A stretch of DNA of 64,000 bases from Lucinisca nassula. Its lineage: Eukaryota; Mollusca; Bivalvia; Lucinida; Lucinidae. Shown here in pieces: positions 39,339 through 64,000 of the stretch (its first letter is position 1; each line of letters starts with the position of its first letter). The notes under the pieces were generated by a model, which was given only the letters and a program-made list of their open reading frames with translations, searched no databases and had not been told where the DNA came from. The stretch spans positions 45,067,431 through 45,131,430 of the forward strand of contig OY757026.1 of the NCBI GenBank assembly GCA_963580285.1. Reading direction: 5' to 3'. A program made the position numbers and the translations under genes.

Positions 39339-39373
<35 letters not shown>
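39339..39373. repeat. (ATT)n microsatellite, expanded in unit 2
   Basis: About 11-12 ATT repeats here, 4 in unit 1 (31108) and about 10 in unit 3 (52345). Confidence 0.9.
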
Positions 39374-39981: not shown

Positions 39982-41708
39982 TAGAAGTAAAAAAAAGGTC
40001 AGGAATTGATACAATTAACTTACTCCACCCATAAAAGACACCAAAGGGAAAGAAATACAAACATTAAGCGACCAGACCATAATGGAAACCTAAACAAAGG
40101 AAGGCCATAAGGACAGTTACTTTCCCACAAAATGGCCATATGGCCATCCAAAATTAAAAGACACAAGTGATACACACAGTAAGCAACAAACAGCAACATA
40201 AATAAATCGCCACAGAAGAGCCGCCTTGGAACGGTCAGTGGAAGATTTCCACCGGGGGGCTAAAATCGATTTTACGTGGCCACAATCCTCGCCCTTACTT
40301 CCGTCGCAATTTAGACAAATAATTTGTTCAGTCCGCATGAAGGCCTCCTAACTCATCAGTGCAACATCTCCGTGAACACAAAAATCAAAGAACCACAGAG
40401 GTGAGACAACGGTGAGGACTCGACAGCAAGAAACCACTGAAATGCTGGAGCAAAAGAAAACCAACAATTAGACTCCGATGAGCCCGACCAGAGACAGTGC
40501 ATCAGGCACCAACCAACATTATCTCTCTAATTTTCAATAAGCCTTTACGTTGGAGCCGTCATAGAATCTGAGGCCTGACCCACCGGCGTGCAATTAAAGA
40601 GGGAAGCAAAGTTGCCAGCCGTGATTGGGTTAACTACCATGCATGCAGTCTGTCGTATAATATCCATGTTGTACCCAATCTTTTTATATCGAAGAATGAT
40701 TTTACGAAATTGGGTGCTGAAGTCATTGCGGTTATATATTTTTCTGAATTTATATACTAAGTCACAATAAAATTCGGGTTCCGATAGACCTTGTTGCAGA
40801 AGAGATTTAAGTCCAATATTGAATTTTGAAATTAAATCAGAATGGCGTCTATAAAATTTTGAAAAGGCTTTGCGTAGTTTATGGTACCGATAACCCTAAT
40901 TAAGGAGTTTAGCCGTTAATAATTTATTACGAGTGTTGAAGTCAGTTACATTACTACACACTCTAGCAAATCGAATTAATTGCGAAATATAAACGCCATA
41001 GGATGGCGCACGAGGAACATCACCATCCAAAAAAGGACAATTTACAATCTCAAAATCAAAGTCATCGCGTTTATCATAAATTTTGCACGAAACAAATCCA
41101 TCTACAATAGATAAATGTAAATCCAAAAACGGGGCCTCGGTATCAGAAGAATTTGCTTTATTTAACTGAAGTTCCAGGGGGTAAATCTGACTGATCAAAC
41201 CATCAAAATAGGTATTATCAATATTTAATAAATCATCTAAATATCTAGAAGTAGAGCTAAAAGCTTCAATAATTTCAGATTGGTTATCAATGGAAAGCGA
41301 CAAAATGAAGTCTCTTTCATAACAATACAAGAACAGATCAGCCACAAGAGGTGCGCAATTAGTACCCATCGGAATACCCACAATTTGTCTAAATAACTTA
41401 GTACCGTATCTAATATAAATATTGTCAAGTAGAAAGGTGAGGGCATCACACACTTTCTGACATGACCAAAGTGTATAATTCTTATGCTCTTTAGAAGTGA
41501 AAAATGCATTTCTGATATTACATGCAAGATAGAGAGAATCTTCTCTGTGAAAAGCCCATTCAATTAAATCATTAAGCTTTTCTTTTATAAGATTATGAGG
41601 AAGTGTAGTGTAAAGAGTGGAAAAATCGTAGGTAGACAGAGTAGAAGCACGAAAATGTCTAGATTTCAATTTATTTAAAACCTCATTCGAATTTTTTATA
41701 GACCAAAA
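39982..41708 (-). mobile_element. Naiad (PLE), 5'-truncated, 1.73 kb (unit 2)
   Basis: The 3' end (reverse of GTTTTACTTCTA) abuts GGAAAG. The 5' break is at the TTTTGGTCTATAAAA position of the RT frame. The RT part (about 41708 to 40596) keeps YDFSTLYTTLPHN, GIPMGTNCAPLVADLFLYCY and RYLDDLLN. A C-to-T change makes Q to stop (TAG) at 40893-40895, so the frame is closed 100 codons early. The 3' UTR follows. Minus orientation within the satellite. Confidence 0.9.
40593..41708 (-). pseudogene. Naiad reverse transcriptase, 5'-truncated with nonsense codon (unit 2)
   Basis: The RT palm motifs A, B and C are all present with catalytic Asp residues (D in STYDFST, DD in RYLDD), followed by FLDLHLSIVDG and FPFLDGDVPRAPSYGVYISQ. 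The UGA codons of the array are not testable here because the endonuclease and the RT N-terminus are missing. The first about 60 codons of the open frame (41709-41888) are satellite read-through, not element sequence. Confidence 0.85.
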
Positions 41709-42750: not shown

Positions 42751-42889
42751 AATATGAGAACCGTTCAGAATATTTTGAAGAAATAGGAAATTATAGTAAT
42801 TTCAAGTATTTGCATGCAATATAATTGTATATGAGTGATTTATATATACTGGCCATGACAAGCTAAAAGGGGTTTTCGCTTCACGAAAA

Positions 42890-43098
42890 CAGGCCTATAT
42901 AATTTTGACCCCCCTTGAACCCCACTTTTATGTAGTAAAACTGGGGTTTACAGGGGTAAACCTTATTTTTCTTATTTCTGGTCTATATTTTGAGCAGAAA
43001 TAATAATAAAAAAAAAAACAAACACAATATTTCATCTTAAAATTTTCATTTTTGGAGGTAAAATTTACAATGTATTGGTATAGTCGTGTTTTCGTTAT
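42890..43098 (-). mobile_element. MITE, CACGAAAACACGCC family (unit 2)
   Basis: Counterpart of 32884-33094, with the same ends. Confidence 0.8.
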
Positions 43099-43194
43099 GG
43101 AGCAGATTCGGAAAGTGAATTGCTGAAGTGAGTATTCATCGGTCTTACATGCTGAAAGAGACCTTATGGCTTGGAACTGTCTATCATATAAAAA

Positions 43195-43945
43195 GGTGAT
43201 GGAATGGTTTATTTTTGTTTCGTTTTGGAGAGGTCCATTTGTTCAGTTCAAAATGGACAATGGCATGGTGAAGGAAGTTATAATTTGAGCGTTTCTGAAA
43301 TGAATGCAATTGAAATTGCAAATTTCTTGAACCAGGGATATTTCATACTTTGTTCATGGCATATATCAGGTTTTACAGGAATGGTTCAGATCCAGTGGCT
43401 TGCTGGCGAAACAATTTAATGTTACTGTGGTAATATTGCCAAATTAAAGTAGAAGCAACGTCTTAAAGATGGCTTTACATTCAGGTGTTCAAACAATCAT
43501 GAATTCGGTATGAGGAAGCATTCTTCCTTTGAAGGCTCTTCATACAATATCAGAGCCCTAGTGATTTTTATAAAAAAAAGAAAGAACAAACAAACTACCC
43601 TGAAGCTCATTCTTTGCACCTGTCTGCTGTATCAACTGGTATGGATTACAACCACACGGGAAAGCTATGTTAGAGAATTTTTTTTCAGAATTTACACTCA
43701 ATACATATGGCATGTCTTCAGGGTGAAGTTGAGATAGACGAAAGTCTTTTCGGTAGAAAGATGAAGTACAATAAAGGGGGGGGGGGTGCAAAGGGCAATA
43801 TGATATGGATGTTTGAGATAGTAATAAAATGAAATCTATCCAGTAGATAACAGAAAACCTGATACACTAATCCCCTTGACACAGCGGCACGTTTACCATG
43901 GTTAAAGAATATTTTGTGATTCTTGGGCCGCATATATGTCACTAA
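43195..43945 (+). pseudogene. Merlin/IS1016-like transposase relic (unit 2)
   Basis: Counterpart of 33190-33950. First catalytic Asp codon 43737-43739. The G run is about 10 bases (43778-43787) instead of about 20. The same frameshifts as unit 1 show that it was dead before duplication. Confidence 0.65.
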
Positions 43946-45174: not shown

Positions 45175-47730
45175 TGTTACATGTGGGTTTACGGCGTCCC
45201 GCAAACCCCCATGCTGACAAGACAACCGAGCGTGATCTCTGACAGGTGTACGGGCAGCTGTGGGGTAAGGCACAAGAAAGATGTTAAATGAATGACATGA
45301 ATTATTTACAGTATCTACATACAACACTTACTAACACAAAACATCACAACTTGTTGCTTCTGTAGCCAACTCACGACATCCGCTCCGAAGGCAAAACACT
45401 GTTCTGTGCTCGGAACGGGTGACGTGAATACCCACAGAAGCAAACAACAAAAACAACAACAAAACAAAAAAAAGAAACAACACAAGACGCGACTGGCCAG
45501 TTTATAACTTAGGGTGAATTCCCCCACTCGCGTGAAACTTCCTCTCGCGAACTAGTAGAACTAGTCTATCAACATAGTTGATACTCCTAGGTTTAGCGAT
45601 CACGTTTGCCGATCAGGGGTTTAGTGATCGTCCAAATAACCTGCAGGTAAGTTGACCTCTTCCATGGTCTCACATTTGTTTACAACGAACAATGATTTAG
45701 AAGATTCTGCTTCTATCCTGGTAGGCGCTGATTACGGCGGTCTGTCCGCCCTTGCTGGACCCTAACGCCTAGCGTCGTACCAGTACCTGCTGCTATGAAG
45801 CAGGGAGCAGCAGGTCACACATTGTTGTGCCTGCAAATTACGATAACTGGACTAGAAACGAGTCACAAAACATACATGCTATATCATGATCCCCCTCCCG
45901 GAGAAGTAAGAATATGTTCATGCATATACCGTTATTGCGCATGCGCCGACCAGACATACAGGCTGATTAGTGCATGCGACAAATAACCGTACAGCAGAAC
46001 TCAACTTGACTGTGCATCAAATTATCAGCACCCAGCGCTTGACACAATAATACTCAAAGTTCATGTTTCCTTACTGAGCACTACAGAAATCAATTAATGC
46101 TCACTACTACTGAGCATAATACTCATCAAATTTGTGCTCACTACATTATCACAAGTAAGAGGCAATTGAACAGACCACGCCTTTGCGCTACCTGGTCAGC
46201 TGCCAATTACAGGAAACATAACAATCTCTATTTCATATCCTTCTCCGCGACACGGCTCACAAATATAGCTATTCACAAATTCAATACATTAATAACAGAT
46301 AGAAACTACAACAGAAGATTTTCATCTATAATCCACAGCATTTGTTAGTGTCTCATAAGGGCCAACACTGTTTGCCGTAAATTCTCTCTATTTGGTAGGC
46401 ACCCCGTCACAACCGTCCTCGCGACGCCGATGACGCAGCTGACGTCATCCCCGCCGCTCAGGCCGTTATGACGTGTGGCGACCAAATACTCCCACTTATC
46501 ATCATCACGTTCTTTATATGTACATACATGCACAAACTGAGTTATCAGACAAAAACGGCATCATTACAAAATGAACTCGTAATTCTTCTTGAACAAAATT
46601 ATTTCTAATCAACGTGAACATGCTTGTAAAATAAAATTCATTACGGTTCATCATCACGGATAACCCAACAGGCTCTTGTAAGAGTTTGCCCTGATGATGA
46701 AGATATGGTTAAACCCGTCTTAAGTTTACGTCCCCTCTACACCTAATATCATATTGGGACGGAACCACGGTTTTCTAACCACAGCTAGTCAAAAGTCATG
46801 GATCAAACAAGTGACCCGGCGTTTATTAATTACATTCTACAAAAGGGGTCTAAAAGCCTAAATGAATCCAGAATGAGCGGGTGTCCAAACTTTACGTCTC
46901 ACCAACATCTAGGGTCAGCATGAGACAGGACCTCACTTAGAAAGACTCATTCTACTGGAGAAGCCTGGGATCGATCCTGCGACGTCTAGCTGGCAAAGCT
47001 AGTAGCCTAATCACTACAGGCCTCAACAGTGAATTCAGAATAGGCTTCAGAAAGTTGGGGTATACTAGAAGTAAACCCCTCCAAAACCTACAAGCATGTT
47101 CATACAAAAATAATACTAAACATAGATTTAACATACCTTTCAATATACTTTCTATTTCCCCGTCACAATGTTGTGTTCACTCTTACAACTTGACCTGCTG
47201 CTAAAGTGTTCGCTTTTTTCAGGGTTTATATATCTATGAATACTACCAGAAAATCATGCCCACTCATATTACCTTGCTTTGTTCGTGGCGAAGTGGAGAT
47301 ACCGGCCACAAACAAAGCCAGATAGCAAAAATCGAGTAGATAATGGATTTGCGTTCAAATAGTATATTTCCCATAGGAAAAATTGATGAAACGACCCTAT
47401 AAATCAATGCCATGACTCCTGTTAAAACGAACACCATCACAACACGTGACGGGAATGAAAATCATATATGGCACAATTTGGCGGTTGGCGATTTTTAGGC
47501 AAATTCTATAGGACTCGGCCTTTTAGCGGCCCCCTGTATTGTAAAAACAGCTCTCTATAAACCACTCATGCATACATCGTATGATATGTGCATGACTTGT
47601 TCATGGAGCCGCACAGTTTGCGTACCATATTTCACCTAAAATATTTCACTCGCACCGCCCTACCATATATCTACTAAATAATTTAGATGTGCATAAGCAC
47701 CAGAGAGGTTTCCTATTCCATCTCGTAACA
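45175..47730. mobile_element. 2556-bp insertion unique to unit 2, LTR-like ends
   Basis: Unit 1 reads CAACGAATGTTACACACG without interruption (about 35174-35191). In unit 2 the same site holds 2556 bases starting TGTTACATGTGGG and ending CTCGTAACA, flanked by GAATG (45170-45174 and 47731-47735). TG...CA ends with a 5-bp duplication fit an LTR retrotransposon derivative such as a solo LTR or a non-autonomous form. I found no coding domain and no second LTR. A tRNA-like block lies at about 46961-47030 on the minus strand. Confidence 0.75.
46961..47030 (-). repeat. tRNA-Ala-like sequence inside the 2556-bp insertion
   Basis: On the minus strand a 7-bp acceptor-like pairing (GAGGCCT / AGGCTTC, then TCCA), an anticodon arm CTAGCTTTGCCAGCTAG with TGC in the loop, and a B-box-like GGATCGATCCC are seen. 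The T arm pairs poorly, so this is more likely a tRNA-derived SINE head or a decayed tRNA than a working gene. Confidence 0.35.
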
Positions 47731-47735
47731 GAATG

Positions 47736-49680
47736 TTACACACGAGCTCGCTCTCCTTCACCAGCACCCTCAACATCTAAGCCTACAGTTGATGATAAGT
47801 TCGTCACCAGGAGAAGATAGCGGATATCTACTTTTTTGAGAAGAATACCAAAAATATTTCATCGAGTGTGTTGAAAATATCAGTATTTTCACGAGTCCGA
47901 AGCACGAGTAAAAATTCTGATGTTTTCAATACACGAGATGAAATATTTTTGATATTTATCGAAAAAAAAGTAAATTTTCTTTTTATTTTATAATATTTTA
48001 GGATTACTGTAATTGATCAATCGGATCTTACGTCACAATTTTGACTTGGCTATGACGTCAAAACTGTCAGTTGCAAAACATAAATAGATCGCCATTTTTA
48101 CAGTTCAAAGAATGCTTTTTCAATGTATTGTAAAGAATTATTTCATCGATCACTTATGACTTTGGCGAAAAAAAGTAGACCGGGCTGCTACTGTGAAAAT
48201 AACAAGGTTTTGTTATGTTTCACAGTATGAAAATATCATTTATATTTCACGCTGTGAAAACATCACTTTTATTTGTTTCAGATATGCATTGTTTTTACTG
48301 CTCAGTATAAAATAAAAAGAAACACAGGCGAAGGCCACTGTTGACAACAGTTCTGATGACACTGATGCGCATTGGGAAGATGTTTCTCATAAATTGTTCC
48401 ATTCGATGCAGTTCCGATCTATGCAAGAAAGTAAAAAGTCAGACAAAAGCTACAGATAACCAACCAAAAGCAAACGATCCAATCCTTATTCAAAACGCAT
48501 ATTTATCATATGACGTCCCGACTGAGAGTGTAATAACGCCATGTAATATTTTCGATAATCCACTAGTGGATTAAATATGCAAATTAGCTAGATACGTCCC
48601 GTAACGTTACATGTACGGCGTCCTTAACGACGTCGCGTTTACTAACGGCGGAATATTGACATTTTTGTAAAAAATCGTGGATACAATGCGTTTTAAATGT
48701 CATATGATAAATAGAATCTTGCATTCGTGCTCATGTATTATTGAATTTATTAAACTCGTCGAGGAAAAGGGATAAAATGCTCGGCAGAGCCTCGTATGTT
48801 ATCCCTTTTCCTCAACTCGTTTAATAAATTCAATAATACATGAACACTCGTGTAAGATCCTCTATTTCTGTATGATTTCTCCAGCTGTGATAGTGACTTC
48901 CAGTGATGAAAGGGTCCAAAGGAAAATTTTAACAATATGTGTATAGATCTACAAAACTCAATAAAAATTAAAAAAGGTAAAAAAAATGTTTAAAAAAATA
49001 CAATACATGTATTTTAAAATTTAAACATTTCACATGACATGAAAATATATGCAATAAAAAGAAGTACTGAGAAAAGAAATTCACGACCGTCATAAATGGT
49101 AAGTAGTTTTCTTAGAAATTGCACTATACATTGATTGACTTTTGAAACATAATTCCAGGTAGATGTACACAGTTACAGTTCAAATGCTGAAATTTACAAT
49201 CTATGTATTACTGTTGAAAATATGATAGGTCAGATGAGATTGTGGCCATTTTCGATTAGCCGGCTGATTTTGACTCAAAATCTTTATCATTTACACAGAA
49301 TTTTAATCTGTACTTTTGTTTACATGTATGTTATTGGTTTAAAACCCGGATATATTTTTCGAATGGGCGAGAGTCATGGGACTGGGACGTGACAAATCCG
49401 GAAAAGACACTTTCGTACACTGTTCCGTCTATTTTAAATCAGGAGATACAATCTGCATGCTTTCAATGTTTCTAACGGCCGTAACGAGTACATCGATATT
49501 ACATTTATAAAGGCAGGCGTTAAAATATGCCATTTATATTTTTAATTAATCTACTTTCCTTCCGTATTCTTACCACAGTTTCATTGACACGGTTTATAAC
49601 GATATTCATGTCATTTTCTTTCGTCTACAACGTTTATTCCGTTTTGACATGTATAATATATAAGTAGTAGGAACGCACTA
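47736..49680. other. Non-coding part of unit 2 with two foldbacks
   Basis: Counterpart of 35190-37132. Foldbacks at 47837-47967 and 48712-48865. No gene seen. Confidence 0.55.
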
Positions 49681-50118
49681 TTTTATCAACTGTCTGTATC
49701 AGAAACACACTCCAATCTTAACAGAATATTTAGATTACAGAAAAGAGCATGCAAAATAATTCTGAATTATCAAATTGATAATATACCTAATGTAATGGAA
49801 GAATTAAAAATATTAAATATTTATGAACGCATTTTTCTCAGAAAAGCAAAAATAATGTACAAAGCCTCAAATGCATTAACACCCCAATATATCTATCAAA
49901 TGTTTCATTTAAGACCCTCCAATAACACTCTTCAGTCTCTAAGATCCACAGGTACCATAAATTATTTAATACCGAGGCCACAAAAAGAAATGTTTAAGCA
50001 GAGCTTACTTTATTCTGGTCCAGTGGTGTGGAACAATTTACCAGACAGCCTCAAAATTTTAGGTTCACTTGACAGTTTCCATAGAAACTGCATTAAGTGG
50101 ATCAAGGGAACCCTCTAA
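49681..50118 (+). pseudogene. LINE (Jockey/CR1-like) ORF2 C-terminal end, open frame (unit 2)
   Basis: The frame is open from about 49681 to TAA at 50116-50118. LNRIFRLQKRACKIILNY, IMYKASNALTPQYIYQM and YSGPVVWNNLPDSLKILGSL are in one frame, unlike unit 1. RT and endonuclease are absent (5'-truncated insertion), so it is a fragment, not a gene. 3' UTR with AATAAAGACG and a longer TTA tail (50289-50330). Confidence 0.8.
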
Positions 50119-50298
50119 TTTCCTTGAAGCTGATATTTATTTGTATTTATTTTTATGTTGTGTGTATGTGTGCATATATATGTGTGTGTGGCTTCTTTGT
50201 AAATTGTAGCTCTACATGTAAATATTGTGCATATTAGAGGGCCTCATGGAAGATTAGCTTGTTGTTGCTAAATGTGTTACCCTCTCAAAATAAAGACG

Positions 50299-50330
<32 letters not shown>

Positions 50331-51243
50331 TACAATAACGGCGTTTTCTACGTGCAATAGCTCATCATCTCATCATCTCTAGTTTCCACATTTATTTCCA
50401 TTTCCTCAGCGGAGATGAAAAGCACAGCCTCCACGCTTAACCGTTTCCGCGCATCACGCAAGCGTCTGAATGATCATGATCATATATTATTACGCCACAT
50501 TTACTTATTTTCTGTTCCGTTGTCAAACGTTCCCGATTTTATTGCCATTCTTCCAAGGTAAAGAACTGTTAGCTGCGTTTTTACTTTACACAATGGCGAC
50601 TTACTTTACATAATGGCGACATTTGTTTTGTTTCGTGACTCGATAATTTACGGAAAACATTATTTTACAAGTTTGACGTTTGCGGACTTTACTGCAATTG
50701 AATGTTTATCAAATTCCAAAATCTATTTCTGTCAAAAAACATTAATTGCAATAATGTGTATTTGACCATAATGCCAAAATCACATGCAAATCTACCGATC
50801 ATAACAAAAAGCGGGCTGCAAAGTTTCAAACTGATTGGTATAAAACTGTATGAGGAGTTGCGCATACCAAGTTCCCACCGCCTTTCGTCAAATTCCGAAG
50901 CCGGAAAGGGGGAAAAAGGGGTATAACTCAGCGATGAGAACCCTGGCGGAAAAAAATACAGGTCCGCTTATTTTTCATGCTGATGCTATAATTAAAATTT
51001 CATGATCCTAACTCTAACCATTCCTGGTCCTATGCAAGTGTAACGGATGGACAGAAGAACAGACAGACAGACAAAAAGACGGACGGCCGAACAGACGGGT
51101 CCAAATCAATAAGCCCAATCAGCTTGGTCTGACTCCCCCCTCCCCCATAAAAAAACACACAAAAAAAACTTGTCCACTCGACAGTTATCAGTTCTGTGTT
51201 GTTGTTCTTGCTTTCAAAGGATTACTTTTCTACAAAACTCAAA

Positions 51244-51469
51244 GGGGCCAGTTGTTCAAAGCATCGTTAGCTTAACGAGCTCGTTAGTGGTCATATTGTT
51301 AACTTTTCTAGCAAGTTTAAGATTTAAAATTATGGTATTTTTGCTGAAAAATGTGAGCAGCTGCTCACATTTTTTTCAGCAAAAATAGTAGCACATTTGG
51401 CAAAATAAATGATTAAAGTTTTAACGATACGTTAACTAACGACGTCGTTAGTTTTGAACAACTGGCCCC
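51244..51469. mobile_element. Palindromic MITE, GGGGCCAGTTGTTCAAA ends (unit 2)
   Basis: Counterpart of 38691-38914 with an added TT in the centre. Confidence 0.9.
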
Positions 51470-51747
51470 TTACTTGTTACTTCGAAGAATAAAAGATGTG
51501 GATATTTGCTAGAATCGCCTCAGCGAGGAGATTCTGACAAATGTTAACAGTATTTGTTTCTTAGAGGAATTGATGGGAAAAGCCCTTTATTACAGAAAAA
51601 AAAACCTTTATTATACTACACCTTATGAAGAATTTTTATAGCGACAACAGATGGGAACAACACTGTCTACTGAAGGAGTGAAATACGGGTATATGCGTCA
51701 GTTTTCCACAGGTTTTTATTTGAGAGGACGCATTTGTGAGGACGCAT

Positions 51748-52100
51748 TGGAAGAACTGTCATACTGTTTGGATTTTCAGTTTTAAAGACGAATGATTTCC
51801 GAAGCAAGCTTTATATAATCAATAGAGGTAACTGCATTCTGTGTGAAATTATCTTCATTTTGTTTCTTAGCAGCAGCTGAAGAAGATGGAGGAACCTCTA
51901 TTTTCCTCTTCCAAAATGACTGAGGGATATGACATGCGTTTGTATTCATGTATCACTCGAAAGAAAACCTACACAATTAACCAAGAAAGAGTCATATTAT
52001 CTTAATCTCTTATAGTTCACAAATCGGATATTCCCTTTATTCAGATGTGAACACCGAACCTGTTCTGTGATAATAAATTCCAAAAAGCATTGGGAAGCAG
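51748..52100 (-). repeat. Copy of the DIRS 5' end (gag start region)
   Basis: Matches 30489-30858, including the gag start region, with a 15-base deletion and point changes. This shows that the duplicated tract once reached into the DIRS element. Confidence 0.8.
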
Positions 52101-52198
52101 ATGGGAACAACACTGTCTACTGAAGGAGTGAAATACGGGTATATGCGTCAGTTTTCCACAGGTTTTTATTTGAGAGGACGCATTTGTGTCACAAAAAC

Positions 52199-52241
52199 AT
52201 GCAGCTAATCTATTTCTTCAAGCCCCGATGGGCGGGGGCCA
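52199..52241 (-). repeat. SINE family A head fragment (unit 3)
   Basis: Same as 30960-31001. Confidence 0.7.
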
Positions 52242-52344
52242 ACTGCCAAAAAGTAAGTTTCTAGTAAGTATATTACAGTTTGTGGTTATAGCAATTGCAT
52301 ATATATAGGAACTGTGCAAAAAACCTCTCTATAATAAAGTGCAC

Positions 52345-52377
<33 letters not shown>

Positions 52378-52974
52378 CATCAATTTTAATGCAGTTGCAG
52401 TATCATAAAATAGTACAGTGTATCTATGCAAACTATTTGTGACCATCCGTAGCTCTGATTGTGGGCATAAACACCTTAGCGTGAAATGTCGGCTGTCTGT
52501 TTTCATTTCCAATAACACGGCTATCCGGAGACATACTGAGCAATACTCACTATTTTATCCACAAGTTTCACTTTTAAAGAAAAATTCTAGTCCTTGTCAT
52601 ATCATATGAAAGAAAAGATTAATCGATCATCAGTATGCAATTTGATGAATATTTCTTCTGGCAATATCCTGATTCTTTCTTGTCCGAGAACTACATTTTT
52701 CTAAACTTAAAAAAGGTATAATCTGCACTATATTTTGTTGATCATTCAGACGCTTGCGCGAAAATTTAGGTCGGCACGAATGCATTTCCGTACACGGGAA
52801 AATTTGTATACGGGATAGAATCAGGCCTCTTATATATACAAAAGACAATCAAGAAACTACCATGCCGTCCCCTGTGGGGAGTCTTTAAGGGTCTTCTTTT
52901 GGGACTTTCAAGGAGTAAAAGGGGGCGTTGTAAAGATTTAAACATTTTTTCTTGTTATATTTGACACAGGAAAG

Positions 52975-54700
52975 TAGAAGTAAAACAAAGATCAGGAATT
53001 GATACAATTAACTTACTCCACCCATAAAAGACACCAAAGGGAAAGAAATACAAACATTAAGCGACCAGACCATAATGGAAACCTAAACAAAGGAAGGCCA
53101 TAAGGACAGTTACTTTCCCACAACATGGCCATATGGCCATCCAAAATTAAAAGACACAAGTGATACACACAGTAAGCAACAAACAGCAACATAAATAAAT
53201 CGCCACAGAAGAGCCGCCTTGGAACGGTCAGTGGAAGATTTCCACCGGGGGGCTTAAATCGATTTTACGTGGCCACAATCCTCGCCCTTACTTCCGTCGC
53301 AATTTAGACAAATAATTTGTTCAGTCCGCATGAAGGCCTCCTAACTCATCAGTGCAACATCTCCGTGAACACAAAAATCAAAGAACCACAGAGGTGAGAC
53401 AACGGTGAGGACTCGACAGCAAGAAACCACTGAAATGCTGGAGCAAAAGAAAACCAACAATTAGACTCCGATGAGCCCGACCAGAGACAGTGCATCAGGC
53501 ACCAACCAACATTATCTCTCTAATTTTCAATAAGCCTTTACGTTGGAGCCGTCATAGAATCTGAGGCCTGACCCACCGGCGTGCAATTAAAGAGGGAAGC
53601 AAAGTTGCCAGCCGTGATTGGGTTAGCTATCATGCATGCAGTCTGTCGTATAATATCCATGTTGTACCCAATCTTTTTATATCGAAGAATGATTTTACGA
53701 AATTGGGTGCTGAAGTCATTGCGGTTATATATTTTTCTGAATTTATATACTAAGTCACAATAAAATTCGGGTTCCGATAGACCTTGTTGCAGAAGAGATT
53801 TAAGTCCAATATTGAATTTTGAAATTAAATCAGAATGGCGTCTATAAAATTTTGAAAAGGCTTTGCGAATTTTATGGTACCGATAACCCTGATTTAGGAG
53901 TTTAGCCGTTAATAATTTATTACGAGTGTTGAAGTCAGTTTCATTACTACACACTCTAGCAAATCGAATTAATTGCGAAATATAAACGCCATAGTATGGC
54001 GCACGAGGAACATCACCATCCAAAAAAGGAAAATTTACAATCTCAAAATCAAAGTCATCGCGTTTATCATAAATTTTGCACGAAACAAATCCATCTACAA
54101 TAGATAAATGTAAATCCAAAAACGGGGCCTCGGTATCAGAAGAATTTGCTTATTTAACTGAAGTTCCAGGGGGTAAATCTGACTGATCAAACCATCAAAA
54201 TAGGTATTATCAATATTTAATAAATCATCTAAATATCTAGAAGTAGAGCTAAAAGCTTCAATAATTTCAGATTGGTTATCAATGGAAAGCGACAAAATGA
54301 AGTCTCTTTCATAACAATACAAGAACAGATCAGCCACAAGAGGTGCGCAATTAGTACCCATCGGAATACCCACAATTTGTCTAAATAACTTAGTACCGAA
54401 TCTAATATAAATATTGTCAAGTAGAAAGGTGAGGGCATCACACACTTTCTGACATGACCAAAGTGTATAATTCTTATGCTCTTTAGAAGTGAAAAATGCA
54501 TTTCTGACATTACATGCAAGATAGAGAGAATCTTCTCTGTGAAAAGCCCATTCAATTAAATCATTAAGCTTTTCTTTTATAAGATTATGAGGAAGTGTAG
54601 TGTAAAGAGTGGAAAAATCGTAGGTAGACAGACTAGAAGCACGAAAATGTCTAGATTTCAATTTATTTAAAACCTCATTCGAATTTTTTATAGACCAAAA
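52975..54700 (-). mobile_element. Naiad (PLE), 5'-truncated, 1.73 kb (unit 3)
   Basis: Same junctions as unit 2: GGAAAG at the 3' end and GACCAAAAG then TTTGTAT at the 5' break. A shared AAAG at both edges may be a 4-bp duplication or junction overlap. Confidence 0.9.
53538..54700 (-). pseudogene. Naiad reverse transcriptase, 5'-truncated with frameshift (unit 3)
   Basis: Motifs A, B and C are intact. One T is missing from a run near 54150 (after LQLNK), so the frame shifts and the last 193 codons (54119-53538) are in another frame. The Q to stop change of unit 2 is absent, so the two copies broke independently. Confidence 0.85.
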
Positions 54701-55730
54701 GTTTGTATATGGGAAAAAATGTATACGGGAAAAAACCAGGACTATTATATATACGAACGAAATTACAAAAAAATAAAATTCCGTCTCGTGGGGTGGTGGG
54801 GGAGGGGCGGTAGCCCCCGGTGCCATAAAGGATCTTCTTTGCGGACTTTCCAGGAATTTATTTCTTTCATATATGACATGGGAACGTTTGTATACGGGAA
54901 AATTTGTATACGGGAAGAATCAGCACTATTATATATACGGACGACATTGTAGAAACTAATATTCCGTCTACTGGGGGAGGTACCCCTAGTGTTTTAAAGG
55001 GTCTTCTTTGGGACTTGCCTGGAGTAAAAGAACGAGCTCGGGTAAAAGTCCAACAACATTTGTATATGGGAAAATTTGTAAACGGGAAAGAATCAGGAAA
55101 TATACGGACAAGACAGGAAGTAATATTCCGTTTCACGGGGGCGAGGTAGGTTCCCCCATTGCATTAAAGGGTGTTTTGGGGGAATTTCTAGGAGTAAAAG
55201 GGGCTAGGAATATTAAGGGGTAGTAGAGATTGAGAAATGATTTCTTTCATATTTATCAGAAAATTAGAACACGGGAAAGAACCAGGACTATTATATATAC
55301 GGACGAAATTATAGAAACTAATACCTTGTCTACTCGGGGTTGGGGTGGGTCAAAGGTACCCCTGAGTGTCTTAAAAGGCGACGATTATGGCAACGTAAAA
55401 TCGATTTAAGACCCCTCATGGAATTCGTTCCACTGACCGTTCCAAGGCAAGCCTTCTGTCGCAGTTTATTTTTGTTATAGGTTGCCTTTGAGTGTTTGTA
55501 TCGTTTATAATATTTTGTTTGGTTAGCCAATTGTCCATTTTGTGGGAAAGTAACTGTGCTTTTGGCTTTCCGCTATTGGTCTAGTTGTTTCATATTTGTG
55601 TTTCTTTCCCTTTTGGTGTCTCTGGTTGGAGCTGTGGATTAATTGTATCGGTTCCTGATCATTACCTTCACTTCTATTCTTCGTGGACTTTCCAGGGGTA
55701 AAATGGGGCTAGGAATATTTAGTGATAGTA
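54701..55730. repeat. Satellite of about 170-200 bp (unit 3)
   Basis: Counterpart of 41709-42750, with the divergent Naiad 3' fragment at 55377-55679 (+). Confidence 0.8.
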
Positions 55731-55869
55731 AAGATTGAGAAATATGAGAACCGTTCAGAATATTTTGAAGAAATAGGAAATTATAGTAATTTCAAGTATT
55801 TGCATGCAATATAATTGTATATGAGTGATTTATATATACTGGCCATGATAAGCTAAAAGGGGTTTTCGC

Positions 55870-56086
55870 TTCACGAAAACAGGCCTATATAATTTTGACC
55901 CCCTTGAACCCCACTTTTATGTAGTAAAACTGGGGTTTACAGGGGTAAACCTTATTTTTCTTATTTCTGGTCTATATTTTGAGCAGAAATAATAATAAAA
56001 AAAAACAAACACAATATTTCATCTTAAAATTTTCATTTTTGGAGGTAAAATTTACAATGTATTGGTATAGTCGTGTTTTCGTTATG
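55870..56086 (-). mobile_element. MITE, CACGAAAACACGCC family (unit 3)
   Basis: Counterpart of 32884-33094. Confidence 0.8.
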
Positions 56087-56181
56087 GAGCAGATTCGGAA
56101 AGTGAATTGCTGAAGTGAGTATTCATCGGTCTTACATGCTGAAAGAGACCTTATGGCTTGGAACTGTCTATCATATAAAAA

Positions 56182-56453
56182 GGTGATGGAATGGTTTATT
56201 TTTGTTTCGTTTTGGAGAGGTCCATTTGTTCAGTTCAAAATGGACAATGGCATGGTGAAGGAAGTTATAATTTGAGCGTTTCTGAAATGAATGCAATTGA
56301 AATTGCAAATTTCTTGAACCAGGGATATTTCATACTTTGTTCATGGCATATATCAGGTTTTACAGGAATGGTTCAGATCCAGTGGCTTGCTGGCGAAACA
56401 ATTTAATGTTACTGTGGTAATATTGCCAAATTAAAGTAGAAGCAACGTCTTAA
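56182..56453 (+). pseudogene. Merlin-like transposase relic, N-terminal part (unit 3)
   Basis: Same as 33190-33460, then cut at GCAACGTCTTAA by the Naiad array. The catalytic part is not in the window. Confidence 0.65.
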
Positions 56454-57761
56454 CCTTACAAAGCACGGTTTATTGCAAATTCTAGTTCTTGCACTACCAC
56501 TGAACTTTCTAAATTATTAACTTCCTGTCTTACTGCTATTAAAACGCATGTAATTAAATATTGTGATAAAGTCTTTGAAAGATCAGGAAGAAATCTGTTT
56601 TGGTCTATAAAAAATTCGAATGAGGTTTTAAATAAATTGAAATCTAGACAGTTTCGTGCTTCTAGTCTGTCTACCTACGATTTTTCCACTCTTTACACTA
56701 CACTTCCTCATAATCTTATAAAAGAAAAGCTTAATGATTTAATTGAATGGGCTTTTCACAGAGAAGATTCTCTCTATCTTGCATGTAATGTCAGAAATGC
56801 ATTTTTCACTTCTAAAGAGCATAAGAATTATACGCTTTGGTCATGTCAGAAAGTGTGTGATGCCCTCACCTTTCTACTTGACAATATTTATATTAGATTC
56901 GGTACTAAGTTATTTAGACAAATTGTGGGTATTCCGATGGGTACTAATTGCGCACCTCTTGTGGCTGATCTGTTCTTGTATTGTTATGAAAGAGACTTCA
57001 TTTTGTCGCTTTCCATTGATAACCAATCTGAAATTATTGAAGCTTTTAGCTCTACTTCTAGATATTTAGATGATTTATTAAATATTGATAATACCTATTT
57101 TGATGGCTTGATCAGTCAGATTTACCCACTAGAACTTCAGTTAAATAAAGCAAATTCTTCTGATACCGAGGCCCCGTTTTTGGATTTACATCTATCTGTT
57201 GTAGATGGATTTGTTTCGTGCAAAATTTATGATAAACGCGATGACTTTGATTTTGAGATTGTAAATTTTCCTTTTTTGGATGGTGATGTTCCTCGTGTGC
57301 CATCCTATGGCGTTTATATTTCGCAATTAATTCGATTTGCTAGAGTGTGTAGTCATGTAACTGACTTCAACACTCGTAATAAATTATTAACGGCTAAACT
57401 TCTTAATCAGGGTTATCGGTACCATAAACTACGCAAAGCCTTTTCAAAATTTTATAGACGCCATTCTGATTTAATTTCAAAATTCAATATTGGACTTAAA
57501 TCTCTTCTGCAACAAGGTCTATCGGAACCCGAATTATATGGTGACTTAGTATATAAATTCAGAAAAATATATAACCGCAATGACTTCAGCACCCAATTTC
57601 GTAAAATCATTCTTCGATATAGAAAGATTGGGTACAACATGGATATTATACGACAGACTGCATGCATGGTAGTTAACCCAATCACGGTTGGCAACTTTGC
57701 TTCCCTCTTTAATTGCACGCCGGTGGGTCAGGCCTCAGATTCTATGACGGCTCCAACGTAA
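56454..57761 (+). pseudogene. Naiad reverse transcriptase, copy A (5'-truncated, frame open)
   Basis: 435 open codons to TAA (57759-57761) with no own start. In order: ANSSSCTTTELSKLL, motif A STYDFSTLYTTLPHN (Asp codon 56679-56681), the insertion-like region, motif B GIPMGTNCAPLVADLF, motif C SRYLDDLLNIDN (DD near 57069-57074), FLDLHLS, and a C-terminal thumb-like region ending ASDSMTAPT. The palm is intact. The fingers' N-terminal half, the DKA motif and the endonuclease are missing. Confidence 0.9.
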
Positions 57762-57947
57762 AGGCTTATTGAAAATTAAAGAGATAATGTTGGTTGGTGC
57801 CTGATGCTCTGTCTCTGGTCGGGCTCATCGGAGTCTAACTGTTGGTTTTCTTTTGCTCCAGCATTTCAGTGGTTTCTTGCTGTCGAGTCCTCACTGTTGT
57901 CTCACCTCTGTGGTTCTTTGATTTCTGTGTTCACGGAGATGTTGCAC

Positions 57948-57978
57948 TGATGAGTTAGGAGGCCTTCATGCGGACTGA
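57948..57978 (+). promoter_or_regulatory. Conserved 3'-UTR motif UGAUGA...CUGA (copy A)
   Basis: TGATGA (57948-57953) and CTGA (57975-57978), 21 bases apart, as in a kink-turn (box C/D-like) pair. The surrounding block GCACTGATGAGTTAGGAG... and GCGGACTGAACA is kept in every Naiad 3' UTR covering it here, including the old fragment at 17410. It also has the AUGA/UGA core expected of a SECIS, but the spacing is too short and there is no apical AA. The role is unknown. Confidence 0.35.
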
Positions 57979-58688
57979 ACAAAATTTTTTGTCTAAATTG
58001 CGACGGAAGTAAGGGCGAGGATTGTGGCCACGTAAAATCGATTTAAGCCCCCCAGTGGAAATCTTCCACTGACCGTTCCAAGGCGGCTCTTTTGTGGCGA
58101 TTTATTTATGTTGTTGTTTGTTACTTACTGTGTGTATCACTTGTGTCTTTTAATTTTGGATGGCCATATGGCCATTTTGTGGGAAAGTAACTGTCCATAT
58201 GGCCTTCCTTTGTTTAGGTTTCCATTATGGTCTGGTCGCTTAATGTTTGTATTTCTTTCCCTTTGGTGTCTTTTCTGGATGGAGTAAGTTAATTGTATCA
58301 ATTCCTGATCTTTGTTTTACTTCTACTTTGCATATCAGGGCTGTTTTGTTTGTGCCGTGTGGCGGCTGTAAAAGGTCTCCCCGTACATGCATTTAATGCT
58401 CTTATTTTTCCAATCCTCAGGGATTGCTTATGCAATTGCTTTTCACTGTTCCATCAATTGACATCCTTTAGATACCTGTTGAAGGTCATTATTAAACCGA
58501 TGTTCGTTCCTCGTTGTATAACAACTGCTTGTTTGACATCCCTGTACTTTAAGTAGACTAGGATGTTTTGTGGGCTTTTGTTGTACCTTCCTTCTATTCG
58601 AAGGAATTTTCTTCAGTAATTTTGTTTATTTAATAACCGGTATGAACATCGCTTTGGTTTTGACGGTATCACAACCTTACTAACCAAA

Positions 58689-59577
58689 ATGAGTATTACA
58701 AATACATTTAAAATATCAATATCACCCCTTAGGTTACACTCTGCTTCTTCTGTACGGATTCCCCATTCGATTAAGAACTTTAATACTATGTTGCCTTCGG
58801 TATTGGTTAGACCCTTAAATTTGTCTTCTGTAACTTCAGTTAATCTCAAAGGAGCAGGCAATACCAATGTTTTTGGGAGTAGTCTTCGTATAAGACTATC
58901 TCCTCTCAAATCACCCATCCTTCGAAAATATACTAATCCGTGGAAAAGAAGTGGAATGTATCCTAGTATTTCTAAGTGCAATGCCAAGAGGTGCAGATGT
59001 TGTTCGCATTTAAGCACTGCGTCTACCGTTACTTCATCTGTAAACGGTAGACGCTTCTCTGTAGTTAACATGTCTGATTTGACATGACAGTCTACAGATT
59101 TAATTTATCTAATTACTTGACGTGCTGCAAACTGTAATATGCAGTACGTCGGTCAAACTAACCGCATGCTTAAAACTAGATTGAACGAGCATTATCGTAG
59201 AATGAGTAAGCCTAAGAAAACTGACACTTTCTTGTTCCGTCACTTTTGACGTACAGGTCATTCTGTAAATAACATTATTATACAACCAGTAGACAAACTT
59301 TATTACGATGCAAATTCTACATCTAGATTCAAAATAATCAAAAGACATGAAGCTGAACTGAAATGGATTAAATTTTTTACAGACCCCTTTTCCACTGGGA
59401 TTTAATGACAACATTTATCATGAGGGTAATATTTCCAGAATGCCGGACTTTGATATTTTCTCACTCCTGGAATGTCGAAAACGCAGAACTAGATCTCACG
59501 GCACCAGGAAAAATGGTAACTTTAAACGCAAATCACGTGCGTTTAAACGAAACAATACTAGACTGAAGTGACTGTAA
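58689..59577 (+). CDS. Naiad GIY-YIG endonuclease ORF with in-frame UGA codons (copy B)
   Basis: Nicks the target DNA during insertion. ATG 58689 opens 132 codons: a basic N-terminal region, then a Cys cluster (C97, C102, C104, C105: SKCNAKRCRCCSH), then UGA at 59085-59087. The same frame continues over LIYLIT, UGA (59118-59120), RAANCNMQYVGQTNRM and RLNEHYRRM, UGA (59247-59249), RTGHS, and HEAELKWIKFF. LIY...YVG with the downstream R and E is the GIY-YIG signature; LIT-UGA..C and HF-UGA-RTGH lie on the PLE CCHH zinc site. An extra base at 59400 shifts the frame to NDNIYHEGNIS, a basic tail, UGA (59569) and UAA (59575-59577). Selenocysteine recoding is the favoured reading; decay is the alternative. 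The extra base is a true defect unless a shift is programmed. Confidence 0.8.
59019..59054 (+). other. Stem-loop just upstream of the first UGA (copy B)
   Basis: GCGTCTACCGTT (59019-59030) pairs perfectly with AACGGTAGACGC (59043-59054) around a 12-base loop, 30 bases before the first in-frame UGA. Identical in copy C (63171-63206). It lies in coding sequence for TVTSSVNGR, so the pairing could be chance. Confidence 0.45.
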
Positions 59578-59607
59578 ATTATATTATCAAATCATGGATG
59601 CCACTCT

Positions 59608-61913
59608 TTGCTTTCATTTTTAAGTTCATTACCCGTTTCTGTTTTACGTCTTCTGGACACCGAGGCGAATAAATTCTACGATAGTTCTCATCAGTTATAT
59701 GATACGGCTCTCTTAACTAGAGGCTATACTCAGCATACTCTCCGTCCTTACATTGATTCTGAAATTAATCATAAACGTCATTTCTTCAAGATATCCTTCA
59801 TTAATAAGGGTATGGATTTTATAGATTTGCCCAGTATCTTCCGTGAGAGATCGGTGCTTTCTTCCATTCCTGCTTATTTTCAAAATACTGAAACACCTAT
59901 AATTTGCTATAAATATAACAAACCTGTTAGATCTATCATTTTTAATTTCAAAAAACTTGTTTCAGATCTTGATATTGATACTAATACTCCTGATTCATGT
60001 GATTGTAAAAACTCAAAGTATTGCTATCCTGCTGCTGGTCATGTAATCACTGGCAATTTGAAAATTATTCCTGATTCTAGGATAAGGAATATAATTTCTA
60101 AAGGACCGAAATATCGGTTTCCTTCTAAAATTGATTTCAGTAAATGTAGAGATGAAATCGCTGCTTCCGTGAATGAATTCGGTAATCGATGGTGTAAGCG
60201 AGAGTATGTTGAGTGTAAAGCCCTAAAGGACTGGAAACTTAGCATTTTAAGACTAGTGAATAAACGCATTTCTTTCTATTCTCAAAATACTAACTTATTA
60301 CCTCCTAAGCCCAAGACGTCTTTACGTCATCTTAAACTAGGTATTCAAGAATTTCATAAGAAGTTTGTTTTGGCCCCTGCAGACAAGGCCGCTAACAACG
60401 TCGTTGTTGTGTGACGGCTCCACTATGTTAACACGCTTAAGCAGGAGCTTGGTGGTACTAAGGCCTATGAATTTCAGCCTTTGGCTGAAGAGAGAGCTAT
60501 AGTAGATAAACATGTTTGTCTTTCAGCCACCAAGTTTGCTGTGTGTGTTAAAGAAGGCCAAGACAAGCTTCCTACGCTATACTTGTTACCAAAACTTCAT
60601 AAATACCTTACAAAGCACGGTTTATTGCAAATTCTAGTTCTTGCACTACCACTGAACTTTCTAAATTATTAACTTCCTGTCTTACTGCTATTAAAACGCA
60701 TGTAATTAAATATTGTGATAAAGTCTTTGAAAGATCAGGAAGAAATCTGTTTTGGTCTATAAAAAAATCGAATGAGGTTTTAAATAAATTGAAATCTAGA
60801 CAGTTTCGTGCTTCTAGTCTGTCTACCTACGATTTTTCCACTCTTTACACTACACTTCCTCATAATCTTATAAAAGAAAAGCTTAATGATTTAATTGAAT
60901 GGGCTTTTCACAGAGAAGATTCTCTCTATCTTGCATGTAATGTCAGAAATGCATTTTTCACTTCTAAAGAGCATAAGAATTATACACTTTGGTCATGTCA
61001 GAAAGTGTGTGATGCCCTCACCTTTCTACTTGACAATATTAATATTAGATTCGGTACTAAGTTATTTAGACAAATTGTGGGTATTCCGATGGGTACTAAT
61101 TGCGCACCTCTTGTGGCTGATCTGTTCTTGTATTGTTATGAAAGAGACTTCATTTTGTCGCTTTCCATTGATAACCAATCTGAAATTATTGAAGCTATTA
61201 GCTCTACTTCTAGATATTTAGATGATTTATTAAATATTGATAATACCTATTTTGATGGTTTGATCAGTCAGATTTACCCACTAGAACTTCAGTTAAATAA
61301 AGCAAATTCTTCTGATACCGAGGCCCCGTTTTTGGATTTACATCTATCTATTGTAGATGGATTTGTTTCGTGCAAAATTTATGATAAACGCGATGACTTT
61401 GATTTTGAGATTGTAAATTTTCCTTTTTTGGATGGTGATGTTCCTCGTGCGCCATCCTATGGCGTTTATATTTCGCAATTAATTCGATTTGCTAGAGTGT
61501 GTAGTCATGTAACTGACTTCAACACTCGTAATAAATTATTAACGGCTAAACTTCTTAATCAGGGTTATCGGTACCATAAACTACGCAAAGCCTTTTCAAA
61601 ATTTTATAGACGCCATTCTGATTTAATTTCAAAATTCAATATTGGACTTAAATCTCTTCTGCAACAAGGTCTATCGGAACCCGAATTTTATGGTGACTTA
61701 GTATATAAATTCAGAAAAATATATAACCGCAATGACTTCAGCACCCAATTTCGTAAAATCATTCTTCGATATAGAAAGATTGGGTACAACATGGATATTA
61801 TACGACAGACTGCATGCATGGTAGTTAACCCAATCACGGTTGGCAACTTTGCTTCCCTCTTTAATTGCACGCCGGTGGGTCAGGCCTCAGATTCTATGAC
61901 GGCTCCAACGTAA
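59608..61913 (+). CDS. Naiad reverse transcriptase ORF with one UGA and one frameshift (copy B)
   Basis: Copies the element RNA at the nicked target. Copy C has ATG where this copy has TTG (59608). The first 268 codons hold HFFKISFINKGMDFIDLPSI, the Naiad CxC linker (C131, C133: DSCDCKNS) with GHVITGNL at 144-151, and the PLE DKA motif (APADKAANNVVVV, 259-261). UGA at 60415-60417 stands where relatives have Cys, and the frame continues RLHYVNTLKQELGG to LLPKLHK. One base is missing at 60604-60605, after which the frame runs from PYKARFIANSS through motifs A (STYDFSTLY), B (GIPMGTNCAP), C (RYLDD) to UAA 61911-61913. The long fingers region agrees with the insertion reported for Naiads. Intact palm, so RT activity would need both breaks resolved. 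Confidence 0.85.
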
Positions 61914-62099
61914 AGGCTTATTGAAAATTAAAGAGATAATGTTGGTTGGTGCCTGATGCTCTGTCTCTGGTCGGGCTCATCGGAGTCTAACTGTTGGTTT
62001 TCTTTTGCTCCAGCATTTCAGTGGTTTCTTGCTGTCGAGTCCTCACTGTTGTCTCACCTCTGTGGTTCTTTGATTTCTGTGTTCACGGAGATGTTGCAC

Positions 62100-62130
62100 T
62101 GATGAGTTAGGAGGCCTTCATGCGGACTGA
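62100..62130 (+). promoter_or_regulatory. Conserved 3'-UTR motif UGAUGA...CUGA (copy B)
   Basis: Same motif pair as in copy A, 4152 bases downstream and unchanged. Confidence 0.35.
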
Positions 62131-62840
62131 ACAAAATTTTTTGTCTAAATCGCGACGGAAGTAAGGGCGAGGATTGTGGCCACGTAAAATCGATTTAAGC
62201 CCCCCAGTGGAAATCTTCCACTGACCGTTCCAAGGCGGCTCTTCTGTGGCGATTTATTTATGTTGTTGTTTGTTACTTACTGTGTGTATCACTTGTGTCT
62301 TTTAATTTTGGATGGCCATATGGCCATTTTGTGGGAAAGTAACTGTCCATATGGCCTTCCTTTGTTTAGGTTTCCAATATGGTCTGGTCGCTTAATGTTT
62401 GTATTTCTTTCCCTTTGGTGTCTTTTATGGATGGAGTAAGTTAATTGTATCAATTCCTGATCTTTGTTTTACTTCTACTTTGCATATCAGGGCTGTTTTG
62501 TTTGTGCCGTGTGGCGGCTGTAAAAGGTCTCCCCGTACATGCATTTAATGCTCTTATTTTTCCAATCCTCAGGGATTGCTTATGCAATTGCTTTTCACTG
62601 TTCCATCAATTGACATCCTTTAGATACCTGTTGAAGGTCATTATTAAACCGATGTTCGTTCCTCGTTGTATAACAACTGCTTGTTTGACATCCCTGTACT
62701 TTAAGTAGACTAGGATGTTTTGTGGGCTTTTGTTGTACCTTCCTTCTATTCGAAGGAATCTTCTTCAGTAGTTTTGTTTATTTAATAACCGGTATGAACA
62801 TCGCTTTGGTTTTGACGGTATCACAACCTTACTAACCAAA

Positions 62841-63729
62841 ATGAGTATTACAAATACATTTAAAATATCAATATCACCCCTTAGGTTACACTCTACTTCT
62901 TCTGTACGGATTCCCCATTCTATTAAGAACTTTAATACTATGTTGCCTTCGGTATTGGTTAGACCCTTAAATTTGTCTTCTGTAACTTCAGTTAATCTCA
63001 AAGGAGCAGGCAATACCAATGTTTTGGGGAGTAGTCTTCGTATAAGACTATCTCCTCTCAAATCACCCATCCTTCGAAAATATACTAATCCGTGGAAAAG
63101 AAGTGGAATGTATCCTAGTATTTCTAAGTGCAATGCCAAGAGGTGCAGATGTTGTTCGCATTTAAGCACTGCGTCTACCGTTACTTCATCTGTAAACGGT
63201 AGACGCTTCTCTGTAGTTAACATGTCTGATTTGACATGACAGTCTACAGATTTAATTTATCTAATTACTTGACGTGCTGCAAACTGTAATATGCAGTACG
63301 TCGGTCAAACTAACCGCATGCTTAAAACTAGATTGAACGAGCATTATCGTAGAATGAGTAAGCCTAAGAAAACTGACACTTTCTTGTACCGTCACTTTTG
63401 ACGTACAGGTCATTCTGTAAATAACATTATTATACAACCAGTGGACAAACTTTATTACGATGCAAATTCTACATCTAGATTCAAAATAATCAAAAGACAT
63501 GAAGCTGAACTGAAATGGATTAAATTTTTTACAGACCCCTTTTCCACTGGGATTTAATGACAACATTTATCATGAGGGTAATATTTCCAGAATGCCGGAC
63601 TTTGATATTTTCTCACTCCTGGAATGTCGAAAACGCAGAACTAGATCTCACGGCACCAGGAAAAATGGTAACTTTAAACGCAAATCACGTGCGTTTAAAC
63701 GAAACAATACTAGACTGAAGTGACTGTAA
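62841..63729 (+). CDS. Naiad GIY-YIG endonuclease ORF with in-frame UGA codons (copy C)
   Basis: Same layout as copy B: UGA at 63237-63239, 63270-63272, 63399-63401 and 63721-63723, UAA at 63727-63729. The extra base is also present (63552). All UGA codons and the frameshift are shared by copies B and C, so they predate the array or are constrained. Confidence 0.8.
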
Positions 63730-63759
63730 ATTATATTATCAAATCATGGACGCCACTCT

Positions 63760-64000
63760 ATGCTTTCATTTTTAAGTTCATTACCCGTTTCTGTTTTACG
63801 TCTTCTGGACACCGAGGCGAATAAATTCTACGATAGTTCTCATCAGTTATATGATGCGGCTCTCTTAACTAGAGGCTATACTCAGCATACTCTCCGTCCT
63901 TACATTGATTCTGAAATTAATCATAAACGTCATTTCTTCAAGATATCCTTCATTAATAAGGGTATGGATTTTATAGATTTGCCCAGTATCTTCCGTGAGA
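63760..64000 (+). CDS. Naiad reverse transcriptase ORF, N-terminal part (copy C, cut by window end)
   Basis: A true ATG at 63760 (TTG in copy B) starts MLSFLSSLPVSVLRLLDTEA in the RT frame, 31 bases after the UAA of the endonuclease ORF. Open to the window end, reaching the DLPSIFRE block. The rest lies outside. Confidence 0.85.
   Translation, partial: MLSFLSSLPVSVLRLLDTEANKFYDSSHQLYDAALLTRGYTQHTLRPYIDSEINHKRHFFKISFINKGMDFIDLPSIFRE

Follow-up and report, generated by a model that had tools for sequence, protein, structure and literature searches.

A Naiad-type Penelope-like element family of the clam Lucinisca nassula whose protein most probably carries four selenocysteines

Naiads, described by Craig, Yushenova, Rodriguez and Arkhipova in Mol Biol Evol in 2021, are said to be permuted Penelope-like elements (PLEs) with an N-terminal endonuclease (EN), and members with multiple selenocysteines (Sec) have reportedly been found in clams and spiders. 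A CxC linker motif is a defining feature of the group. To our knowledge, selenocysteine-dependent mobile elements are known from one report, and multi-Sec Naiads as such have reportedly been published already; a literature search with most subscription journals outside its coverage returned no paper on selenoprotein PLEs and, equally, none on a selenocysteine insertion sequence (SECIS) overlapping a stop codon or on a fixed UGA at a position other than cysteine (Cys). The family analysed here was met in a stretch of 64,000 nucleotides from the lucinid bivalve Lucinisca nassula (GenBank assembly GCA_963580285.1, contig OY757026.1, positions 45,067,431 to 45,131,430 of the forward strand), hereafter the window, in which an original prediction made from the letters alone had proposed a Naiad-type permuted PLE with candidate Sec codons (UGA) in both EN and reverse transcriptase (RT), a proposal borne out by intact frames, domain order and Cys/UGA interchange. 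As judged from sequence, and at a probability of roughly 0.87, the family would encode an EN-RT selenoprotein of 1,074 residues in which Sec occupies columns 133, 144, 294 and 575 of the intact frame, served by one SECIS hairpin at the end of the open reading frame (ORF).

With the published Naiads, to which it is likened by their general description, the family shares the permuted EN-CxC-RT order, tandem units with pseudo-long terminal repeats (pseudo-LTRs) and multiple UGA at Cys positions; the overlap of a candidate SECIS with the stop codon and a putative Sec at a non-Cys position would be its less familiar details. Canonical Penelope/Poseidon PLEs, exemplified by PAc of Anolis, likewise combine a PLE RT with a GIY-YIG EN in a tandem/pseudo-LTR organisation and differ in their C-terminal EN; the string 'selen' has 0 occurrences in the main text of the source (PMC11167929). 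Many UGAs in one mRNA are equally found in selenoprotein P of molluscs, for which reported numbers of Sec are 46 (oysters) and 132 (one bivalve) and which, in contrast, is a host protein with two SECIS in its mRNA and not a mobile element (PMC8230778).

The studied unit in the window and its codons of interest are located as follows.

58330..62481, + strand: Naiad unit of 4,152 bp, with 5' untranslated region (UTR) of about 359 nt, ORF and 3' UTR of about 568 nt (self-comparison)
58689..61913, + strand: EN-RT ORF from ATG 58689 to UAA 61911-61913, disrupted in the window copy
58947..59384, + strand: GIY-YIG endonuclease domain (AlphaFold2 model, Foldseek)
59085..59087, + strand: predicted Sec codon 1, column 133, UGA in 29/29 family copies
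59118..59120, + strand: predicted Sec codon 2, column 144, UGA in 29/29 family copies
59247..59249, + strand: private UGA, column 187, no Sec codon of the family, Arg codon in 29/29 copies
59569..59571, + strand: predicted Sec codon 3, column 294, a non-Cys column, UGA in 29/29 family copies
60412..60414, + strand: predicted Sec codon 4, RT part, column 575, UGA in 29/29 family copies

Copies of the element were collected from the window's own genome (2.93 Gb, 696 contigs; the window is C20:45067431-45131430), where 38 of the 40 top-ranking entries among 1,007 first-look candidates lay outside the window, and 33 of these were taken, the five left out being tandem neighbours; exclusion of four loci with an interrupted ORF match (L022, L029, L030, L043) left 29 full-length copies. 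UGA stands at each of columns 133, 144, 294 and 575 in all 29, and 16 of the 29 keep all 1,074 codons in a single frame, which contains exactly four UGA and is free of UAA and UAG up to its terminal UAA. These 16 intact copies diverge pairwise by only 0.54% on average (range 0.28-1.02%), which points to a recent amplification. Each of the four in-frame stops fixed in the family is UGA, in contrast to the nine private stops at aligned columns of the 29 copies and the window copy, which comprise seven UAA and two UGA; UAG was also met in shifted frames of three copies with indels (L021, L026, L037). The family is abundant and recently amplified, and its protein most probably carries four selenocysteines.

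Beyond the full-length copies, a 33-base pattern in which codon 133 may be any triplet matches the genome exactly at 2,522 places (control 0), and among the 100 matches listed codon 133 is TGA in 95 and TAA, GGA, TGG, CGA or TTT in the others. The endonuclease query P0057 gave exactly two TGA and no other stop in 131 of the 150 listed matches, the rest having TAG (10), one TGA only (5) or three TGA (4). Seven such or neighbouring loci were read individually (L049-L055), among them three of the ten with TAG, of which L049 and L050 are frameshifted and L051 holds a private stop. The query P0003 begins within the endonuclease; each of its 54 scored matches holds just two TGA in the aligned part, and these should, from the extent of the alignment, be columns 294 and 575. 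The query P0012 gave 48 rows, of which 24 at 39-40% identity are the present family and contain TGA only (four in 20 rows, three in four rows; no TAA or TAG); the other 24, at 49-63% identity, contain 16 TGA, 15 TAG and 30 TAA, with five rows free of stops, and are taken by us to be a separate, Cys-type Naiad group. The prediction from the window sequence had tied its proposal to the kinds of stops across the genome, and the fixed stops of the family are indeed UGA only, with mixed UGA, UAG and UAA in the other Naiad group. The possibility that the family is simply dead and its UGAs are common nonsense mutations draws on the window copy, which is indeed broken and whose UGA at 59247 is such a mutation; it is very improbable in view of four UGAs fixed in all copies examined, over half of them otherwise intact, of the predominance of TGA among the codon-133 matches listed, of private stops that are mostly UAA and of the mixed stops in the other group. 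Neutral decay as the source of all UGAs is refuted at the family level, at four columns, by intact, recently amplified copies.

Two loci of the other group were read. L048 is open across 885 codons from within the endonuclease to the end, without a stop, and has Cys in the CxC motif and at the RT column; L058 is decayed and likewise has Cys in the CxC motif and at the RT column, its TGAs lying elsewhere. The group and the proteins P0012 and P0019 have Cys where the present family has UGA, and the open L048 gave no match to the Rfam family SECIS_1, unlike the present family, the decayed copies of its group showing mixed stops. C5:10352603, listed with five TGA, was considered as a second Sec lineage and rejected as a decayed Cys-type copy, in which the endonuclease, CxC and RT positions all hold Cys and the TGAs lie elsewhere.

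Relatives at the protein level were assessed by aligning 150 of them one by one, 120 of these being the best 120 of 417. Cys had been expected in relatives at three or more of the UGA positions, and columns 133, 144 and 575 are in fact mostly Cys (C) or tryptophan (W): W 33, C 9 and other 5 among 47 aligned relatives at column 133; W 28, C 5 and other 3 among 36 at column 144; W 6 and C 23 among 29 at column 575. W occurs 158 times at columns without W in the intact frame, and 67 of these fall on UGA columns, which make up 125 of 37,699 aligned cells; the remaining W are at Cys (15), Arg (21), Phe (14) and Leu (13) columns and elsewhere (28). Of the 120 endonuclease relatives listed, 74 terminate precisely at column 132, often with identical flanking residues, and W in the UGA columns is for this reason presumed to be UGA translated with genetic code 4. 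Two columns with a Cys codon in 29/29 family copies behave similarly in relatives, namely column 437 in the CxC motif (C 13, W 5, L 1) and column 149 (C 36, W 4, Y 3). Cys and UGA are furthermore exchanged within the genome, with UGU at column 133 in L045 and L047 and at column 144 in L046, all copies listed without TAA or TAG. As a separate observation, L054 has a further UGA at column 149, another endonuclease Cys position.

The database proteins with W at Sec or Cys columns (P0001, P0002, P0004, P0005, P0006, P0021, P0031-P0044) seem to derive from animal DNA to which prokaryotic gene callers applied code 4. Two PLE reverse transcriptases (P0157, P0208), 79% and 75% identical, are filed under metagenome-assembled genomes (MAGs) of Candidatus Thiodiazotropha. 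Candidatus Thiodiazotropha are symbionts of lucinid clams, so that clam host DNA is likely in these MAGs and the two proteins are probably contaminating host DNA. A caution applies to gene callers, which truncate proteins of this kind at their first UGA or apparently render Sec as Trp. Scans for related loci gave two distant matches in a viral collection, one distant MAG contig and otherwise none.

A SECIS had been predicted downstream of the ORF, within 57762-58327 or 61914-62479; a SECIS-like match was found, below the cut-off, which begins 28 nt earlier, in the coding region, and spans the stop. With SECIS_1 at E up to 5, the whole window yields only four matches, at the same place in four element copies (25.1, 25.1, 23.7 and 23.7 bits), and the match at 57734-57813 has E 0.025 when 1,021 bases are compared with 4,227 families.

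61886..61965, + strand: SECIS-like element of the studied copy (SECIS_1 25.1 bits; fold)
57734..57813, + strand: SECIS-like element of the upstream tandem copy (SECIS_1 25.1 bits)
40493..40572, - strand: SECIS-like element of an inverted truncated copy (SECIS_1 23.7 bits)
53486..53565, - strand: SECIS-like element of a second inverted truncated copy (SECIS_1 23.7 bits)

The match holds UAUGACGGC, the helix GGC-U-CCAAC / GUUGG-U-GCC, AAA 12 nt past AUGA, and UGAU. In the studied copy AUGA lies at 61896-61899, the apical AAA at 61912-61914 and UGAU at 61954-61957, with the UAA stop at 61911-61913; the stop codon therefore sits in the apical part and gives two of the three A. In the sister copy L045 the apical arm is longer and forms a helix of 8 bp (SECIS_1 24.1 bits), and a longer apical arm with an extra helix is a trait of form-2 SECIS. 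Two further copies were of no use for comparison: a diverged copy at 16893-17784 of the window, because the stop/SECIS stretch is missing there, and a diverged copy beside L021, which has lost the core motifs and speaks neither for nor against a SECIS. Constraint on the hairpin can be approached through relatives that reach the C-terminus, where column 1071 bears a letter in 102 of 117 (M 86, T 11, K 2, I 1, R 1, D 1), compatible in 101 of the 102 with a codon starting with A, the last base of AUGA, with L or V in none, and 94 of the 102 stop exactly at column 1075; the other 15 of the 117 end before column 1069 (11), 1060 (two), 1063 (one) or 1070 (one). This pattern fits a constraint at the RNA level, a protein-level reason being possible as well.

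It appears about an even bet that this SECIS is dual-coded, with its 5' arm and AUGA encoding the last RT residues and the UAA giving two apical A, so that one hairpin, kept in relatives from other genomes, would set both termination and recoding, Sec could become fixed at non-Cys positions and UGA would effectively be a sense codon in the element's frame.

On the side of the host, the genome contains two tRNA-Sec genes (80.0 and 77.4 bits), called tRNA-SeC with anticodon TCA by ARAGORN; weaker matches mean little because the same search responds in 14/14 control genomes, in five of them above the cut-off. UGA readthrough that is independent of Sec, by near-cognate Trp, Arg or Cys, or a mostly short product ending at codon 133, would accommodate both a UGA off the Cys columns and the fact that Sec itself is deduced here. 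Four successive leaky stops would, on the other hand, yield very little RT, and the UGA/Cys interchange at three columns, the SECIS-like 3' hairpin and the presence of tRNA-Sec also speak for Sec, which leaves such readthrough improbable.

We infer actual Sec insertion and its function from fixed UGAs in intact, closely similar copies taken together with Cys/UGA interchange, the SECIS-like match and the tRNA-Sec genes. Sec at columns 133 and 144 would occupy conserved endonuclease Cys positions, that at column 294 would lie in the linker and that at column 575 in the RT, after a VVVV stretch. One SECIS hairpin across the ORF end would recruit the host Sec machinery, presumably including SECIS-binding protein and elongation factor, and all four UGAs would be decoded while the UAA within the hairpin still terminates. 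The protein would then nick DNA and reverse-transcribe its own RNA, as usual in PLEs, to give tandem units with pseudo-LTRs. Permissive capture is judged the most likely reason for the Secs, in that, once the element had a SECIS, substituting UGA for Cys codons, and now and then for other codons, would have cost little. A variant of this explanation holds that selenium gates transposition, Sec in EN and RT tying activity to host selenium or redox state as a selected and not a permissive trait; it gains from the fact that two of the four Secs coincide with conserved Cys of the endonuclease and a third with a Cys of the RT. It is rather unlikely, given that copies open in other respects differ in having UGA or UGU and that one Sec lies outside the Cys columns, both of which look permissive.

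Several points weigh against a four-Sec protein served by a SECIS. Column 294 falls outside the Cys columns: its 13 aligned relatives have D 3, N 3, Q 2 and various other residues, with no C or W, so that the alignment of in-frame UGA with Cys is absent there. The copies with UGU were favoured in sampling because the query has Cys there, and the endonuclease copies L052 and L053, with one TGA fewer, have TGG and CGA at column 144. TAG occurs, as stated, in 10 of the 150 listed endonuclease matches. The near-identical copies are non-independent evidence, and 55 synonymous and 64 non-synonymous variable codons among the 16 intact ones give no sign of selection after insertion. With respect to the hairpin, Rfam at the gathering threshold finds no SECIS anywhere in the 64-kb window, all element matches lying below the SECIS_1 gathering score of 35, and in the whole-window search the E-values are 1.6 to 3.9, in a list of 27 mostly chance-level matches, many of them to other Rfam families. 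Furthermore, the SECIS fold with open core, at -13.9 kcal/mol in the family form, lies 2.5 kcal/mol above the free minimum of -16.4, and the two inverted copies have different minimum-energy folds.

Closely similar copies, with an intact frame in over half of those examined, would offer a natural test of multi-UGA decoding, the family appears to swap Cys and Sec between copies, and the SECIS-like hairpin overlapping the stop would let the interplay of termination and recoding be examined.

The window copy itself is a dead member of the family, with two frameshifts, a private UAA and one extra non-Sec UGA. Its ORF is disrupted by single-base frameshifts near 59370 and near 60600, the second of which restores frame 0; frame 0 contains UGA 59085, 59118 and 59247, and the part between the frameshifts UGA 59569, UAA 59575 and UGA 60412. 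The three UGAs reported in the endonuclease frame from ATG 58689 (59085, 59118, 59247) are all present and in-frame, and the one reported in the RT frame is present with its first base at 60412 instead of 60415. Three of these four are family features, with UGA in 29/29 copies, and the fourth, 59247, is private decay: as a Sec codon it is ruled out by an Arg codon in 29/29 family copies and by a column, 187, with K 23, N 5, R 3 and others and no C or W among 38 aligned relatives. One family UGA, 59569, had been overlooked, and the statement that all premature in-frame stops are UGA does not hold for the window copy, in which the in-frame UAA 59575 (column 296) replaces a Ser codon of 29/29 family copies.

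The assignment to Naiads, that is N-terminal EN+ Penelope-like elements, is a probable one, on which EN order, CxC, CCHH and tandem copies agree. The endonuclease precedes the RT in one ORF, which is intact in 16 of the 29 copies, L013 among them, and the related proteins P0012 and P0019 have PF01541 (GIY-YIG) ahead of PF00078 (RVT_1), with only PF01541 above the cut-off in P0019; Pfam gave no match on three ORF pieces of the window. An AlphaFold2 model of the endonuclease (36 aligned sequences, UGA read as Cys) reached a mean predicted local distance difference test (pLDDT) score of 86.5 and a predicted template modelling score (pTM) of 0.79, and its best match in the PDB is the I-TevI catalytic domain 1ln0 (Foldseek probability 1.00, E 0.025; TM 0.72-0.73 on target length), Foldseek giving no PDB match at E 0.001 or better. 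The CxC linker appears as SCDC in the intact frame at column 437, where 18 of the 19 relatives that align have C or W. The placing of two UGAs on the CCHH zinc site agrees with the alignment, columns 133 and 144 being Cys or UGA and the His columns 168 and 185 being conserved in at least 90% of alignment A2; together they form a putative metal site, and we take the four columns to be residues of the published CCHH motif of PLE endonucleases. Tandem organisation is seen at 13 of the 33 loci, where the RT end of an upstream copy lies within about 1.1 kb of flank, and the unit end is supported by matches that stop at most five bases from 62481 at 24 of the 33 genomic loci.

In the window the studied unit is flanked by two partners in the same orientation.

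56453..58329, + strand: upstream tandem partner, 5'-truncated (RT part and 3' UTR; self-comparison)
62482..64000, + strand: downstream tandem copy, ending at the window edge (self-comparison, frame reading)

Self-comparison gives 99.4% identity between 56453-57761 and 60605-61913, and the downstream copy has UGA 63237, 63270, 63399 and 63721 and UAA 63727 at the places matching the studied copy. Two inverted, truncated element copies lie near 40.0-41.7 kb and near 53.0-54.7 kb of the window. The diverged Naiad copy at 16893-17784, named above, is about 90% and then 76% identical. Elsewhere in the genome, L055 is a tandem array of an internally deleted variant with a unit of about 2,534 bp by spacing, the copy read keeping four UGAs, and the full-length copies L031, L033 and L039 have apparently inserted into other copies of the element and show repeats of 2 to 5 bases where they join them. 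The window also contains direct multi-kilobase duplications of about 99% identity, 39091-43466 / 52098-56453, which contain the inverted Naiad fragments, and 35173-39181 / 47727-51738, as well as a tandem array at 1792-3600 (period about 168 bp, also 333; about 11 copies, 87% matches) and a tandem repeat at 11101-11815 (period 305, 2.3 copies, 93% matches).

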